DNA of 64,000 bases from Verrucomicrobium sp. GAS474 (GTDB taxonomy: Bacteria; Verrucomicrobiota; Verrucomicrobiia; Methylacidiphilales; GAS474): contig NZ_LT629781.1 of NCBI RefSeq assembly GCF_900105685.1, forward strand, positions 2,604,001 through 2,668,000. Direction: 5' to 3'. Both the position numbers and the translations under genes were made by a program. Below the pieces are notes generated by a model. The model made no database searches. It worked only from the letters and a program-made list of their open reading frames with translations, and had not been told where the DNA came from. Positions 2,509-7,701 of this stretch are shown piece by piece. Numbering within the stretch: position 1 is the stretch's first letter; each line of letters begins with the position of its first letter.

Positions 2509-3273
2509 ATGGAATCCTCCCCCGCGGCCCCGCTCGAGCCCAAGGCCGAGCCGCCCGTCCTCACGGTCCGCTTCTACCGGCCCGAGGACCGGCCCGTGAT
2601 CCGGCGGATCTGCGCCGAGACCGGTTTCCTCGGGAAGCCGATCGACCCGCTCTTCGAGGACCGCGAGCTCTTCGCCGATTACCTCACCCGCTATTACACC
2701 GACATCGAGCCCGAATCGACCCTCGTCATCGAGAGCGGCGGCGTGGTCCAGGGATACCTGAACGGTTCCCGCCGGGTGGGGCAATACAAGCGGTTCCGGT
2801 TCCGGGACAACGCCCGCCTCTTCCTCGTCGGGGCCTGGCGCTACTTCACCCGCCCCTACGGGGCCGAGACGCGCCAGTACGTCCGGTGGCTCATGACGCG
2901 GGCCGGGAAAGAGAACCCGGTGACCCCGCAGGATCTCCCCCATTTCCACATCAACCTCCTCCCCCCGGTCCGCAGCGTCGCCGGGACGCGGGCGATCATC
3001 GACGCCTTCCTGAAGTACCTCGTCGAGCAGGGGGAAAAGGGCGTCTACGCCCAGGTCATCTCCTACGAGGCGCGGCGGGCCGTGCGGACCTTCGAGCGGT
3101 ACGGCTTCGAGGTCATCGACCAGAAGGAAGTGACGAAATACCGGCACCTCCACGACGGCGGCATCTTCCTCTTCACGATCATCAAGGACCTGAAGGCGAA
3201 CGGGAGTCTCTACGGAAGCGATCTGGGTAAGGGCAAGGGCAAGCACCAGAGCCAGCCAACATCGAAGGCATGA
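2509..3273 (+). CDS. GNAT-family N-acetyltransferase-like protein
   Basis: A 254-residue protein whose N-terminal half (VRFYRPEDRPVIRRICAET) and C-terminal half (EARRAVRTFERYGFEVIDQ) look like the beta-strand/helix pattern of GNAT acetyltransferases. The end of the fold, where a residue run follows RTFERYGFE, is typical of the CoA-binding half. The acceptor substrate is unknown. The gene sits between a permease (5 bp upstream) and a polysaccharide-deacetylase-like gene with which it overlaps by 4 bases (ATGA), so the two are probably translationally coupled. That context suggests modification of an amino sugar or lipid head group, which is inference. The reading frame is open far upstream inside the permease gene, but ATG 2509 is the first plausible start. 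Confidence 0.72.
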   Translation: MESSPAAPLEPKAEPPVLTVRFYRPEDRPVIRRICAETGFLGKPIDPLFEDRELFADYLTRYYTDIEPESTLVIESGGVVQGYLNGSRRVGQYKRFRFRDNARLFLVGAWRYFTRPYGAETRQYVRWLMTRAGKENPVTPQDLPHFHINLLPPVRSVAGTRAIIDAFLKYLVEQGEKGVYAQVISYEARRAVRTFERYGFEVIDQKEVTKYRHLHDGGIFLFTIIKDLKANGSLYGSDLGKGKGKHQSQPTSKA

Positions 3274-4022
3274 GTGCCACTGCGGGAAAGCACCTCGTCG
3301 TCTCCCTCCACGACCTCCACCCCGGCAGCCGGAAGGCGATCGCCGCCCAGCGGGAGGCGCTGGCCGCGTGGGGCGTCTCCCGCCGGAGCCTCCTCGTCGT
3401 CCCCCAATTCCATCACGGCCCGAAGGCCGACGAGCCCGACTTCGCCGCGACCGTCCGCGCCTGGGCGGGGGAGGGGGACGAAGTTGTCCTCCACGGCTTT
3501 TTCCACGACCGCCAAGGCCGGAAGGACGCCCTCGGCTCTCTCTTCTGGACCCGCCTCTACACGAACCGGGAGGCCGAGTTCCTCGACCTCACCGGCCCGG
3601 AGACGGTGGCGCGGCTTGCCGCCGGGAGCGCCCTCTTTGCCGAGGCCGGTTTCCCCGTCCCGGTCGGCTTCATCGCCCCGGCCTGGCTCATGGGCCCCGA
3701 GGTCGTCCCCGTCCTCCGGGCCGCCGGGTTCCGCCACACGACGACGCTCCGGGAGTTCCTCTCCCTCCAGCGGGGCGAAAGCGTCCCTTCCCAGTCCCTC
3801 TGCTGGAGCACCCGGGCCGCGTGGCGGCGGACGGTCTCGGTCCTCTGGAACCGGCACCTTTTCTCCCGCTCCCAGGGGAATTCCCTCCTGCGGATCAGCC
3901 TCCATCCCGACGATCTCCTCCACGTCACAATCCGGAAACAAATCGAGCGGGTCGTGAAAACGGCATTGGATCGCGGCTTCGAGCCGGTAACCTATGCGGA
4001 TTATGCCTCTCTGCCGGGTTGA
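3270..4022 (+). CDS. DUF2334-type polysaccharide deacetylase-like protein
   Basis: A 250-residue protein with the layout of the NodB/DUF2334 carbohydrate-esterase fold: an N-terminal SLHDLHP motif that would supply the catalytic Asp, a central HGFFH motif giving the metal-binding histidines, and RISLHPDD near the C-terminus. No signal peptide is seen, so it probably acts in the cytoplasm, for example on a nucleotide-linked or lipid-linked amino sugar. It overlaps the GNAT gene upstream by 4 bases and the PHP-glycosyltransferase gene downstream by 29 bases. Such overlap indicates one translational unit. The fold is fairly sure; the substrate is not known. Confidence 0.75.
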   Translation: MSATAGKHLVVSLHDLHPGSRKAIAAQREALAAWGVSRRSLLVVPQFHHGPKADEPDFAATVRAWAGEGDEVVLHGFFHDRQGRKDALGSLFWTRLYTNREAEFLDLTGPETVARLAAGSALFAEAGFPVPVGFIAPAWLMGPEVVPVLRAAGFRHTTTLREFLSLQRGESVPSQSLCWSTRAAWRRTVSVLWNRHLFSRSQGNSLLRISLHPDDLLHVTIRKQIERVVKTALDRGFEPVTYADYASLPG

Positions 4023-6414
4023 CCTCCATCTCCACTCCCGCTTTTCCGACCGCCCCTCGGAGTGGATCCTGCGGCAGCTCGGGATGCCCCAGAGCTACAG
4101 CCAGCCGGAGGCCCTCTACGCCCGCCTCCACCAGGCCGGGATGCGGTGGAAGACGATCACCGACCACAACCGGATCGACGGCGCCCTGGAGCTCGCCGCC
4201 CGCCATGACGACGTCTTCCTCAGCGAGGAGGTCACGACCTACTTCCCCGACGGCTGCAAGATCCACCTCCTCGTCTGGAACCTGACCGAGGCCCAGCACC
4301 GGGAGATCGCCACCCTGCGGGAGAACATCTACGACCTCGCCGGATGGCTCCGCGTCCAGAAGCTCCCCCACGGCGTCGCCCATCCGCTCTCCGACATCAA
4401 CGGGAAGCTGACCCCCGCCCACGTCGAGAAGCTCCTCCTCCTCTTCCGCGTCTTCGAGGGGCGGAACGGCAACCGCGAGCCGCTGGCCCAGCAGGTCCTC
4501 GGCCAGATCGTCGCCTCCCTCACCCCGGAGAAGCTGGCCCAGCTGGCCGACCGCCATCACCTCGCCCCGGTCGATGCCGATTTCCACCGGAAGATCCTCA
4601 CCGGCGGCTCCGACGACCACGGCGGCCTCTACGCCGGGCGGACGTGGACCGAGGCGGCGGTTGATTCCAACACAGCCGACACCGTCGACGGCTTCTTCGC
4701 CGCCCTCCACTCCGGCCTCGCCACGCCGCAGGGGGAGGCCGGGACGCCGCTCCATCTTTCCAGCAGCTTCTACAACACCGTCTTCTCCTACGCGCAGGAC
4801 CGGATGAAGAAGACCGCCCCGCTCGCCGCCAATCTCCTCAGCACCGTGGCGCAACGGTTCGTCACCGGCAAGAACCCGACCGACTTTTCCTTCGGCGAGC
4901 AGATGGGCTTCGTCGTCGAGGCGGTCCGGACCGGCCAGGTCTTCGACTTCTTCAAGCCGGGCGAGACGACCCTCTCGCGGGAGTTCGCCGCCTTCTTCAC
5001 CGATCCGAAGGTGAAGACCGATCTCGACACCATCATCCGCACCGAGGCCGGGCCGGAGCGCCGCTCCTTCGCGATGGCCTCCTACCTCACGAACCAGCTC
5101 TCCTACCGCCTCTTCCTCGAATTCATGCGGCGGGTCGAGCGGGGAAGCCTCCTCGACGCCTTCCAGTCCCTCACCGGGATCGTCCCCGTCGCCGGGGCCG
5201 TCCTTCCCTACGTCGTCGCCTACCGGCAGCAGGCCCCCGCGCGGCCCTTCCTCCGCGAGACCGCCCGGGAATTCCTCCCCGAGGTCCCCTCCTTCCTCCG
5301 CAACGAGAAGCGGGCCTGGTTCACCGACACCCTCGAGGACGTCAACGGCGTCGCCCGGACGATCTGTTCCATGACGGCGGCGGGCCTCCGCGCCGGGGCC
5401 GACCTCACCGTCGTCACCTCCCGGTCCGAGGTCTTCGTCACCGACATCCCCGTGAAGAACTTCGCCCCCGTCGGCGAGTTCGAGATCCCCGAGTACAAGC
5501 TCCAGAAGATGAGCTTCCCCCCCTTCCTCGAGATCCTCGACTACATCGAGCGGGAAGGCTTCACCGAGCTCGTCATCAGCACCCCCGGCCCCGTCGGCCT
5601 CTGCGCCCTCGCGGCGGGGAAGCTCCTCGGCCTCCGCCTCACCTCGATCTACCACACCGACTTCCCCCAGTACGCCCGCTTCCTGAGCGACGACGCCTTT
5701 ATGGAGACCGTCACGTGGCGCTACATGCAGTGGTTCTACGGCCAGTTCCACCGCATCTACGCGAACTCCGAGTTCTACCGTCAGTGCTGGATCGACCGCG
5801 GCATCCCCGCCTCCCGGCTCGAGATCTTCCCGCGCGGTCTCGACACCTCCCTCTTCGCCACGAAGTTCCGCCGTCCCGATTTCTGGACCGCCCGGGGCGC
5901 GAAGCCGGGCGCGCCCGTCCTCCTCTACGTCGGCCGCGTCTCGAAGGAAAAGGAACTCGGCTTCCTCGTCGACGTCGCCCGCGAGCTGGAGAAGCGGGGT
6001 GCCTCCTTCACCGTCGCCCTCGTCGGGGACGGCCCCTTCCGGGACGAGATGGCGGCGGCCCTTCCCGGCGCGATCTTCACCGGAGTCCTGACCGGGGAGG
6101 AACTCGCCGCCGCCTACGCCTCCGCCGACCTCTTCCTTTTCCCCAGCACCACCGACACCTTCGGCAACGTCGTCATCGAGGCGATGGCCTGCGGCCTCCC
6201 CGTCGTCGTCTCCGACGTCGGCGGACCGAGGGAATTGATCACCGCCCCTGCGCGCGGCGCCGTCGTCCCCGCGCGGAACCTGAAGCAATGGGCCGACACC
6301 GTCTCCGGCTTCCTCGCCGCCCTCCCCACCGAGGCCTCCCGCCAGGCCCTCTCCAGCGAGATCCACGAGGAACGGAGCTGGGACCGGGCGTTCCAGAAAT
6401 TCTGGAACGAATAA
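3994..6414 (+). CDS. PHP-domain phosphoesterase fused to a GT4-type glycosyltransferase
   Basis: An 806-residue two-enzyme fusion. Residues about 5-235 form a PHP metal-dependent phosphoesterase domain, with VDLHLHSRFSD, TDHNR, VAHPLSD and GSDDHGG in the usual order and all main metal-ligand histidines and aspartates visible. A helical region of about 200 residues follows. From about residue 435 a complete GT-B fold begins, ending with VLLYVGRVSKEKELGFLVD and the nucleotide-sugar region FPSTTDTFGNVVIEAMACG. The GT half resembles lipid- or polysaccharide-directed GT4 enzymes. The fusion implies coupled removal of a phosphate and sugar transfer, perhaps in glycolipid assembly (inference). A second start at 4003 is possible. 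Confidence 0.88.
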   Translation: MRIMPLCRVDLHLHSRFSDRPSEWILRQLGMPQSYSQPEALYARLHQAGMRWKTITDHNRIDGALELAARHDDVFLSEEVTTYFPDGCKIHLLVWNLTEAQHREIATLRENIYDLAGWLRVQKLPHGVAHPLSDINGKLTPAHVEKLLLLFRVFEGRNGNREPLAQQVLGQIVASLTPEKLAQLADRHHLAPVDADFHRKILTGGSDDHGGLYAGRTWTEAAVDSNTADTVDGFFAALHSGLATPQGEAGTPLHLSSSFYNTVFSYAQDRMKKTAPLAANLLSTVAQRFVTGKNPTDFSFGEQMGFVVEAVRTGQVFDFFKPGETTLSREFAAFFTDPKVKTDLDTIIRTEAGPERRSFAMASYLTNQLSYRLFLEFMRRVERGSLLDAFQSLTGIVPVAGAVLPYVVAYRQQAPARPFLRETAREFLPEVPSFLRNEKRAWFTDTLEDVNGVARTICSMTAAGLRAGADLTVVTSRSEVFVTDIPVKNFAPVGEFEIPEYKLQKMSFPPFLEILDYIEREGFTELVISTPGPVGLCALAAGKLLGLRLTSIYHTDFPQYARFLSDDAFMETVTWRYMQWFYGQFHRIYANSEFYRQCWIDRGIPASRLEIFPRGLDTSLFATKFRRPDFWTARGAKPGAPVLLYVGRVSKEKELGFLVDVARELEKRGASFTVALVGDGPFRDEMAAALPGAIFTGVLTGEELAAAYASADLFLFPSTTDTFGNVVIEAMACGLPVVVSDVGGPRELITAPARGAVVPARNLKQWADTVSGFLAALPTEASRQALSSEIHEERSWDRAFQKFWNE

Positions 6415-6415
6415 T

Positions 6416-7558
6416 TCAGGCCCTTTTCCTCAGCCCATTTTTACGAATCGAGGCTTGGGCGGGGGCCTCGAAATAGCGGTACGCCAGGAATGCGGCGACG
6501 CAAGTGATTCCCATATAAAGCAGGAAGAAGGCGTTGTGGTAGAGTGGAACGCCTTGCCCCGATCGGGTGAAAATCAGGACAAGCCCCAGTTGAATCGGGA
6601 AATGGAGGAGATAACTCGAATAGGTCATGTTTCCGGCGCTCTCCACGTATTTCCGCAGGGAGTCGGGAATGGAAATATCCCTTGCGAAGAAGAGCACCAG
6701 CGCGGGGATGTAAAGATAGGAAAGCAGGGGTTCGATGGGAGTGCCCGGGTGAGGGTTCCAGTGCAGCAGCTTTTCCATGATGGGTGTCGCGATCAGGAAA
6801 CCCGCCAGCAAAACTTTCAGTAGCAGATCCTTCGATTTTGAATCGGGCGAGGCAAGCCTGCCAAGCAGAGTCATCGTCCCTCCGAGATAGAAATAAAGGA
6901 CGCAATCGAATAGCGGGGTCCGTCCGTGCATCGCCGTCAGCACCCCGAATATCCCGAGCACGATCAGGCTCACCCGGAACGAGGCGCCGAAACGGAAAGT
7001 CACGCAGAAGAACACCATATAAATCAACACTTCCAACGAGATGGACCAAACCGGGCCATTGAAGCTGAGGTGGCTCTGATTGATCCAATCGCTGGCCATG
7101 AAGAGCTGGAGGAGGAAATGGAGAGTGTCGGTGTCCCGGTAGACGAAGAAGAGGTGGTGTCGTGTGAGGTAGCACCACTGAAGCAGGCAGACCAGGAGGA
7201 GGGTTGCCAGATGAAGCGGATAAAGACGTGAAAAGCGAAGGATGAAAAATCGCCCTGCGGAAATGTTTTTTTCCCGAATCGCATGGCCATATTTCCAGAA
7301 GAAAATATAACCGCTGATGCACCAGAAAATCGGGACTCCATAATTCCCGAAGTCGTAGAGGGACTTCAGTAGGGGATAAAAGGGCTGGTTCTCCCGCACC
7401 CAACCGATCGGATCGTTCCCGATATAGGCGAAATGCCGGTAATGGAAGACGACGACAGCCATTGCCGAAAGAAAGCGAATCAACTCGAGTCCCAGCAGTT
7501 TATTCCCGGACGGAGAGCCCTGAGGTCTTTCTCCAGACGATGAAGGAGGCTGGCTCAT
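6416..7558 (-). CDS. Membrane acyltransferase, OafA/YrhL family (acyltransferase 3)
   Basis: About 380 residues with roughly ten hydrophobic segments. The N-terminal ELIRFLSAMAVVVFHYRHF holds the catalytic-type histidine of acyltransferase-3 proteins, and an RFSRLYPLH motif follows, as in OafA and NodX relatives. These enzymes add acetyl or similar groups to O-antigen, peptidoglycan or exopolysaccharide sugars. Base composition is clearly lower than in both neighbours (23 of 60 G+C on the line starting at 7261), with AT-rich codons, suggesting more recent acquisition. The start at 7558 (MSQPPSSSGERPQ) is preferred; the frame stays open to 7684. It converges tail to tail with the glycosyltransferase, leaving 1 base between stops. 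Confidence 0.87.
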   Translation of the reverse strand: MSQPPSSSGERPQGSPSGNKLLGLELIRFLSAMAVVVFHYRHFAYIGNDPIGWVRENQPFYPLLKSLYDFGNYGVPIFWCISGYIFFWKYGHAIREKNISAGRFFILRFSRLYPLHLATLLLVCLLQWCYLTRHHLFFVYRDTDTLHFLLQLFMASDWINQSHLSFNGPVWSISLEVLIYMVFFCVTFRFGASFRVSLIVLGIFGVLTAMHGRTPLFDCVLYFYLGGTMTLLGRLASPDSKSKDLLLKVLLAGFLIATPIMEKLLHWNPHPGTPIEPLLSYLYIPALVLFFARDISIPDSLRKYVESAGNMTYSSYLLHFPIQLGLVLIFTRSGQGVPLYHNAFFLLYMGITCVAAFLAYRYFEAPAQASIRKNGLRKRA

Positions 7559-7701
7559 GGCATCAGGGAGAGCGCCTCGATCGGGATGAGCCATGTCTTG
7601 CCTGTCTAATCTCGTCCCGGAGCCATGACAAGTTATATTGCGCTCTCTCCAAAGACCGGCTCCCTTCTTGCCCCCGCCGGGCAATCGGCTTTAATGGACC
7701 G

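Follow-up and report, generated by a model that had tools for sequence, protein, structure and literature searches.

A three-gene locus encoding a phosphoesterase-glycosyltransferase fusion

Three overlapping genes of Verrucomicrobium sp. GAS474 encode a GNAT-fold protein, a DUF2334 deacetylase and a single chain combining a PHP phosphoesterase domain with a glycosyltransferase (GT; the fusion is called PHP-GT below), and raise the question of whether these proteins serve one pathway and, if so, what they make. The genes lie in a 64,000-nucleotide stretch (the window; NZ_LT629781.1, positions 2,604,001 to 2,668,000) of a complete chromosome of 3.76 Mb. Many bacteria of soil and fresh water, as well as the acidophilic methanotrophs, belong to Verrucomicrobiota, a phylum whose membrane-lipid enzymes have received little study; the relatives with names in public records belong to the Methylacidiphilales and Chthoniobacterales. 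A first-pass annotation had proposed an unassigned system in which phosphate removal, glycosylation, deacetylation and re-acylation act on one lipid-linked amino sugar. We consider it about an even chance (probability 0.5) that, in outline, the window carries three genes of a four-gene verrucomicrobial system for membrane glycolipids, with PHP-GT as a one-chain analogue of the enzyme pair PlcP-Agt. The features concerned are as follows (window coordinates, except for the last).

2509..3273, + strand: GNAT-fold protein P0001, 254 amino acids (aa); probable pseudo-acetyltransferase of the SsAT/O-GlcNAcase-C-terminal type
3270..4022, + strand: DUF2334 deacetylase P0002, GpgD-like, 250 aa
3994..6414, + strand: PHP-GT fusion P0003, 806 aa; start possibly 4003
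3994..4746, + strand: PHP phosphoesterase domain of PHP-GT, residues ~1-251; eight metal ligands intact here
4747..5274, + strand: helical middle domain of PHP-GT, residues ~252-427; no PDB sequence match together with PHP
5290..6411, + strand: GT-B fold GT4 domain of PHP-GT, Agt-like, residues ~433-806; donor motif D721-x7-E729
G000:C1:2268225-2269412 (L161:6214-7431), own chromosome: GpgS-like GT4, the fourth gene

The gene calls agree with the first-pass annotation on the position and overlap of the three genes, the GNAT and DUF2334 genes sharing 4 bases and the DUF2334 and PHP-GT genes 29. Homologues begin M(P/S/L)xxDLHLHS, so that translation of PHP-GT may in fact start from the ATG at 4003; the protein would then have 803 aa and the second overlap would be 20 bases.

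Conservation, fusion and co-occurrence of the genes

PHP-GT is not a chance occurrence. Related sequence, for the most part full-length, was found in all 60 order-mates searched (E ≤ 0.001), and one collection scan returned at least 584 related stretches; no record of the plasmid collection contained a full-length copy. A DUF2334 gene adjoins PHP-GT, or a stand-alone GT, in 35 of 40 loci of the order and in 54 of the 61 loci L100-L160, and several of the loci lacking this adjacency are contig ends. The order GpgS-like, GNAT, DUF2334, PHP-GT looks ancestral from the gene orders compared. Two fusions were also detected: a GNAT-DUF2334 protein of ~490 aa in one family and a GpgS-like-GNAT protein of 701 aa in genome G195. 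Together, these fusions of the GNAT-fold protein to both of its neighbours suggest a physical partnership. Other arrangements comprise a GpgS-GNAT unit with a DUF2334-PHP-GT unit, or a GNAT-DUF2334 unit with PHP-GT separate.

Among 288 genomes of the phylum, the GNAT gene (>200 bits) was present in 15, the GpgS-like gene in 17, the DUF2334 gene (>190 bits) in 16 and PHP-GT in 33. All 15 genomes with the GNAT gene also held the GpgS-like and DUF2334 genes, and 14 held PHP-GT; Fisher values, calculated with kinship between genomes ignored, were 4e-24 for GNAT-DUF2334 and 4e-15 for PHP-GT-DUF2334. The idea of a shared pathway is thus upheld by co-occurrence, conserved neighbourhood and two fusions, whereas its description as unassigned and its re-acylation step fared less well (see below). 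Gene order is conserved across relatives, and PHP and GT parts were not found apart with unrelated partners: a GT without PHP occurred in just one genus (g10), where the stand-alone GT retains the same GNAT-DUF2334 partners. PHP-GT clusters close to verrucomicrobial ones also lie on contigs titled Bacteroidetes, Betaproteobacteria and Acidobacteria (L083, L084 and L143), which are probably records with naming or binning errors.

The deacetylase and the GpgS-like fourth gene

The DUF2334 protein matched PF10096 with 65.8 bits (cut-off 26), and of 104 homologues, 93% or more keep its metal residues D15, H75, H79 and H212; by profile and Asp/His metal residues, it passes as a DUF2334/NodB-like deacetylase. 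It also matched NF053788 (the GlcNAc-phosphatidylglycerol deacetylase GpgD; GlcNAc, N-acetylglucosamine) over its full length with 175 bits, against a curated cut-off of 280, and its relatives scored 175-202 bits. The GpgS-like GT4 encoded elsewhere on the chromosome scored 284 bits with NF053787 (GlcNAc-phosphatidylglycerol synthase), against a curated cut-off of 480, and the GpgS-like proteins of the order 205-300 bits. In Pseudomonas aeruginosa, GpgS places GlcNAc on phosphatidylglycerol and GpgD deacetylates the product (PMC12713373). Since enzymes of known function are thus related to both the deacetylase and the GpgS-like GT, the term unassigned fits the system poorly.

On the chromosome of the window, ~339 kb separate the GpgS-like gene (2.268 Mb) from the trio (2.607 Mb), and the GT4/deacetylase adjacency of the gpgSDF operon is therefore absent. 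In the congener G001, the GpgS-like gene is part of the cluster, which contains, in order, a PMT_2 gene, the GpgS-like gene, GNAT, DUF2334 and PHP-GT. Both the window genome and G002 have the PMT_2-GpgS pair at another place, and there an amino-acid permease gene precedes GNAT in the cluster. Judging from these gene orders, a rearrangement detached the GpgS-like gene from the trio in the branch containing the window genome and G002, but not G001. A GpgF-like flippase gene (NF053789, 113 bits) adjoins the GpgS-like gene in two genomes (G213/G301).

A GNAT-fold protein lacking the acetyl-CoA loop

Pfam and NCBIfam gave no match for the window copy of the GNAT-fold protein, and seven of nine members of the family alignment matched PF00583 weakly. 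Its AlphaFold2 model has the GNAT fold (Foldseek best match 4bmh, E 1.7e-10, with 3zj0 also retrieved), and 4bmh was likewise the nearest solved structure by profile (E 2.7e-18). A homologue is present in 58 of 60 order-mates, mostly in single copy, and the N-terminal half contains highly conserved residues. The acetyl-CoA P-loop Q/RxxGxG/A, by contrast, is carried by none of 36 homologues. In the nearest studied family, SsAT retains the P-loop and binds acetyl-CoA, and alteration of the OgAT loop towards the O-GlcNAcase (OGA) sequence abolished this binding (PMC3919268). Because of the loss of the loop in all homologues and the OgAT precedent, a non-catalytic or unusual role is more likely, on sequence grounds, than the re-acylation proposed at first.

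The PHP and middle domains of PHP-GT

The PHP domain scored below the cut-off for PF02811 (12 bits vs 26.4; E 0.26). When its profile was compared with that of a PHP protein encoded in this genome, the two aligned along the entire domain, motifs in register, with a probability of 93% (E 3e-7); this identifies the domain, at the level of profiles, as a diverged member of the PHP phosphoesterase superfamily. As the first-pass annotation had noted, all the metal motifs are present in the window copy, with the eight usual ligands (H12, H14, H58, E79, H91, H130, D207 and H209) intact. The AlphaFold2 model of the entire chain has a mean predicted local distance difference test (pLDDT) score of 86.7, and the helical stretch between PHP and GT was also borne out: the middle domain (~252-427, about 175 residues) is modelled as helices, mostly with confidence, residues 307-325 being largely below pLDDT 50. 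A sequence search returned no match in the PDB for PHP plus middle domain, and for the PHP part alone just E values of 0.4 and 1.4. The fold search with the full PHP-GT model, the list of which was filled by GT-B matches, barely probed the PHP and middle domains. Nothing relevant to a PHP-glycosyltransferase fusion was found in the open-access literature searched.

In genus g10, the PHP and middle domains are gone and the GT stands alone. These GTs nest within the PHP-GT clade of the tree, and PHP was therefore lost secondarily. Elsewhere, the PHP-GT genes of G029 and G027 (L062 and L061) appear to be interrupted by in-frame stop codons or by frameshifts.

Kinship of the GT half

The GT half scored above the cut-offs of PF13692, PF00534 and PF13439 and matched GT4 enzymes by fold, with MshA (Z 22.9) and BshA as the top matches. 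The GT4 donor motif reported previously was confirmed as D721-x7-E729, the first Glu being replaced by Asp, and it does not vary among the 115 homologues that have sequence there. The best matches from outside the phylum include a P. aeruginosa GT, 33% identical, the gene of which adjoins plcH-plcR. Other top matches lie directly downstream of PlcP-like phosphoesterases, and still others do not; the gene of a second P. aeruginosa GT is flanked upstream by a PlcP-like gene and downstream by cyaB. On the basis of the PAO1 gene order, we take the GT beside plcH-plcR to be Agt2 (PA0842) and that between the PlcP-like gene and cyaB to be Agt1 (PA3218). The neighbours used for these identifications are not named in PMC8528852, in which Agt1 and Agt2 are described as glycosylating the diacylglycerol produced by PlcP under phosphate stress.

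In the GT-half tree, PHP-GT formed one clade (100/100), sister to the Agts (92/87) and separate from the GpgS-like proteins. The best NCBIfam match of the GT half was NF053787 (120 bits, below the curated cut-off of 480). Kinship with GpgS on this basis was considered and dropped: 135 bits were obtained with the same profile for the P. aeruginosa GT taken to be Agt2, and the match therefore says nothing on GpgS.

Lipid-gene context and the distribution of PlcP

PHP-GT lies on the same strand as OlsF (ornithine-lipid synthase) in four genomes of the order of G194, in the following runs.

L169:3183-9906, same strand: PHP-GT and OlsF
L204:85-8485, same strand: PHP-GT and OlsF
L203:3015-8998, same strand: PHP-GT and OlsF
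L205, same strand: PHP-GT and OlsF

UgtP, a small membrane protein and a PhoB-like regulator join the run in L169 and L204, a PhoB-like gene is present in L205 too, and in G006 a UgtP-type gene adjoins PHP-GT. These neighbours are genes typical of phosphorus-free lipids. A protein family (F2, ~572 aa, with weak GH67-like similarity) recurs beside PHP-GT in several of the OlsF runs.

No PlcP homologue was found in the complete genome containing the window. A classical PlcP (48-51% identity) is encoded by seven of 40 genomes of the order, and in five of these seven PHP has been lost (G011, G016 and G033), has a broken reading frame (G029) or carries changes at three ligands (G003). On sequence evidence, this pattern fits replacement of PHP by PlcP, and we treat it as a lead only. 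A search of another two g10 genomes, 77-78% complete, turned up no PlcP, and no Agt-like gene was found beside PlcP in the order genomes carrying it.

A proposed pathway and its alternatives

We infer that the set probably makes a membrane aminoglycolipid through steps of the GpgS/GpgD type; that PHP-GT functions like PlcP-Agt, by analogy, is a tentative proposal to which we give slightly less than even odds. The PHP domain would hydrolyse a phospholipid head group, yielding diacylglycerol, to which the Agt-like GT half would add a sugar. The GpgS-like GT4 would transfer GlcNAc to phosphatidylglycerol or to the hexosyl lipid, and deacetylation by the DUF2334 protein would then produce an aminoglycolipid that is cationic or zwitterionic. 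The GNAT-fold protein would be an accessory or binding subunit for these last two steps rather than an acetyltransferase. In a wider form, which we hold to be doubtful, PHP domains would constitute a second, unrelated phospholipase C class, fused to the diacylglycerol glycosyltransferase using their product; the single chain would replace PlcP-Agt across much of Verrucomicrobiota, and in some lineages the GpgS-GpgD pair and the pseudo-acetyltransferase would add a cationic amino sugar.

Several observations weigh against the membrane-glycolipid proposal. Neither the DUF2334 protein nor the GpgS-like GT4 reaches its curated cut-off, and the sister relationship of PHP-GT and the Agts falls to 48/14 when other GT4s are added to the tree. 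In other copies, ligands of PHP have decayed: E79 is replaced by Q in 38 of the 61 loci L100-L160 and D207 by N in 17 of 40 loci of the order, which means that not every PHP domain can be active. PHP-GT occurs without the other three genes in 17 genomes, and G195 has GNAT, GpgS-like and DUF2334 without PHP-GT; the two halves of the pathway can therefore work apart. A search for E. coli-type Pho boxes ahead of PHP-GT (19 loci) and ahead of the window genes gave nothing above the level of shuffles. The association of PlcP with PHP loss concerns five genomes of one family, and G001 holds an intact PHP plus PlcP.

The erosion of PHP ligands, against an invariant GT motif, would also be expected if PHP-GT were a second GpgS-type GlcNAc- or hexosyl-phospholipid transferase, in which PHP and the middle domain are structural or membrane-docking and the phosphoesterase vestigial. 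The genus that lost PHP and retained GT, GNAT and DUF2334 is consistent with this, as is NF053787 being the best profile match of the GT half. We nevertheless judge this explanation unlikely: the GT read as Agt2 scores likewise with that profile, the tree sets PHP-GT apart from the GpgS-like proteins and all eight ligands are intact in the window copy. The original scheme, in which PHP dephosphorylates a lipid-linked amino sugar that the GT extends, DUF2334 deacetylates and GNAT re-acylates, gains from the operon and fusions tying all four activities together, but is improbable given the absence of the P-loop from every GNAT homologue. Moreover, no gene for a lipid-linked phosphosugar was conserved beside the set in the neighbourhoods compared. 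Its phosphate-removal step is possible, yet conversion of phospholipid to diacylglycerol fits better because of the apparent Agt kinship and the lipid-operon context.

These OlsF, UgtP and Agt links to glycerolipids also argue against a unit modifying surface polysaccharide or lipopolysaccharide and unrelated to membrane glycerolipids. GT4 and deacetylase types do occur in exopolysaccharide loci, and an acyltransferase-3 gene lies downstream (6416-7684), but no polymerase, ligase or export gene was conserved in the same neighbourhoods, and we give this alternative little credence. A pathway for a low-molecular-weight thiol or soluble cofactor on the mycothiol/bacillithiol plan would use the same list of enzyme types (GT4, phosphatase, deacetylase and GNAT), and MshA and BshA are the top folds for the GT half. 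However, similarity to MshA and BshA is common to GT4s in general, BshC (PF10079) was not found in the complete genome (three control genomes were positive), and MshB and BshB are PIG-L-type deacetylases, whereas the deacetylase here is DUF2334/NodB-like by profile; this pathway is very improbable.

If PHP-GT does turn phospholipid into glycosyl-diacylglycerol, it would represent a new route to phosphorus-sparing membranes and a new substrate class for PHP phosphoesterases, with two enzymes that are neighbours elsewhere joined as one chain. The glucosaminyl-phosphatidylglycerol lipid has been observed since the 1960s and its genes were assigned only in 2025; this type of pathway would be extended to another phylum, with two extra components.

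Relationship to known systems

The set most likely works in the manner of gpgSDF and hexSDF, with the addition of a one-chain PlcP-Agt analogue, but by the comparisons made it is a member of none of these systems. It shares with gpgSDF of P. aeruginosa (PMC12713373) linked genes for a GT4 and a DUF2334/COG3233 deacetylase, with full-length profile similarity, and a YbhN-type flippase in G213/G301; it differs in scoring below the curated cut-offs, in its additional GNAT-fold protein and PHP-GT, and in the lack of an adjoining flippase in the window genome. The hexSDF genes of Clostridioides difficile, for aminohexosyl-hexosyl-diradylglycerol synthesis (PMC10128005), follow a similar logic of GT, deacetylase and flippase. 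Their amino sugar is proposed to be placed on a hexosyl lipid from another GT, a role that would here fall to PHP-GT. Unlike the GpgS-like GT4, however, HexS is described as a monogalactosyldiacylglycerol-synthase type, and hexSDF has neither PHP nor GNAT.

PlcP-Agt renovation (PMC8528852 and PMC4796936) resembles PHP-GT in placing a phosphoesterase ahead of a GT4 from what may be the same branch, and phosphorus-free lipid genes with PhoB neighbours accompany PHP-GT in one order. The phosphoesterase has a PHP fold here and is an LpxH-like metallophosphoesterase there; in PHP-GT, both parts form one chain with a helical middle domain, and no Pho box was found. SsAT/OgAT GNATs and the O-GlcNAcase pseudo-HAT domain (PMC3919268) are nearest to the GNAT-fold protein in fold and sequence. 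This family, unlike SsAT, has lost the P-loop glycines, and human OGA is atypical there too. The fusion of PHP to an Agt-like GT, spread in the phylum, and the linkage of a pseudo-acetyltransferase to both GpgS- and GpgD-like enzymes are new here.

Neighbouring genes in the window

An APC-type amino-acid permease gene (986-2503) ends 5 bases before the GNAT gene, and a homologous permease gene likewise lies upstream of GNAT in L081, in which PHP-GT is 88% identical. The acyltransferase-3 family gene directly past PHP-GT (6416-7684) is on the opposite (-) strand. No acyltransferase-3 gene was called at the matching place in the congener G001, in which three tandem M3 peptidase genes follow directly.

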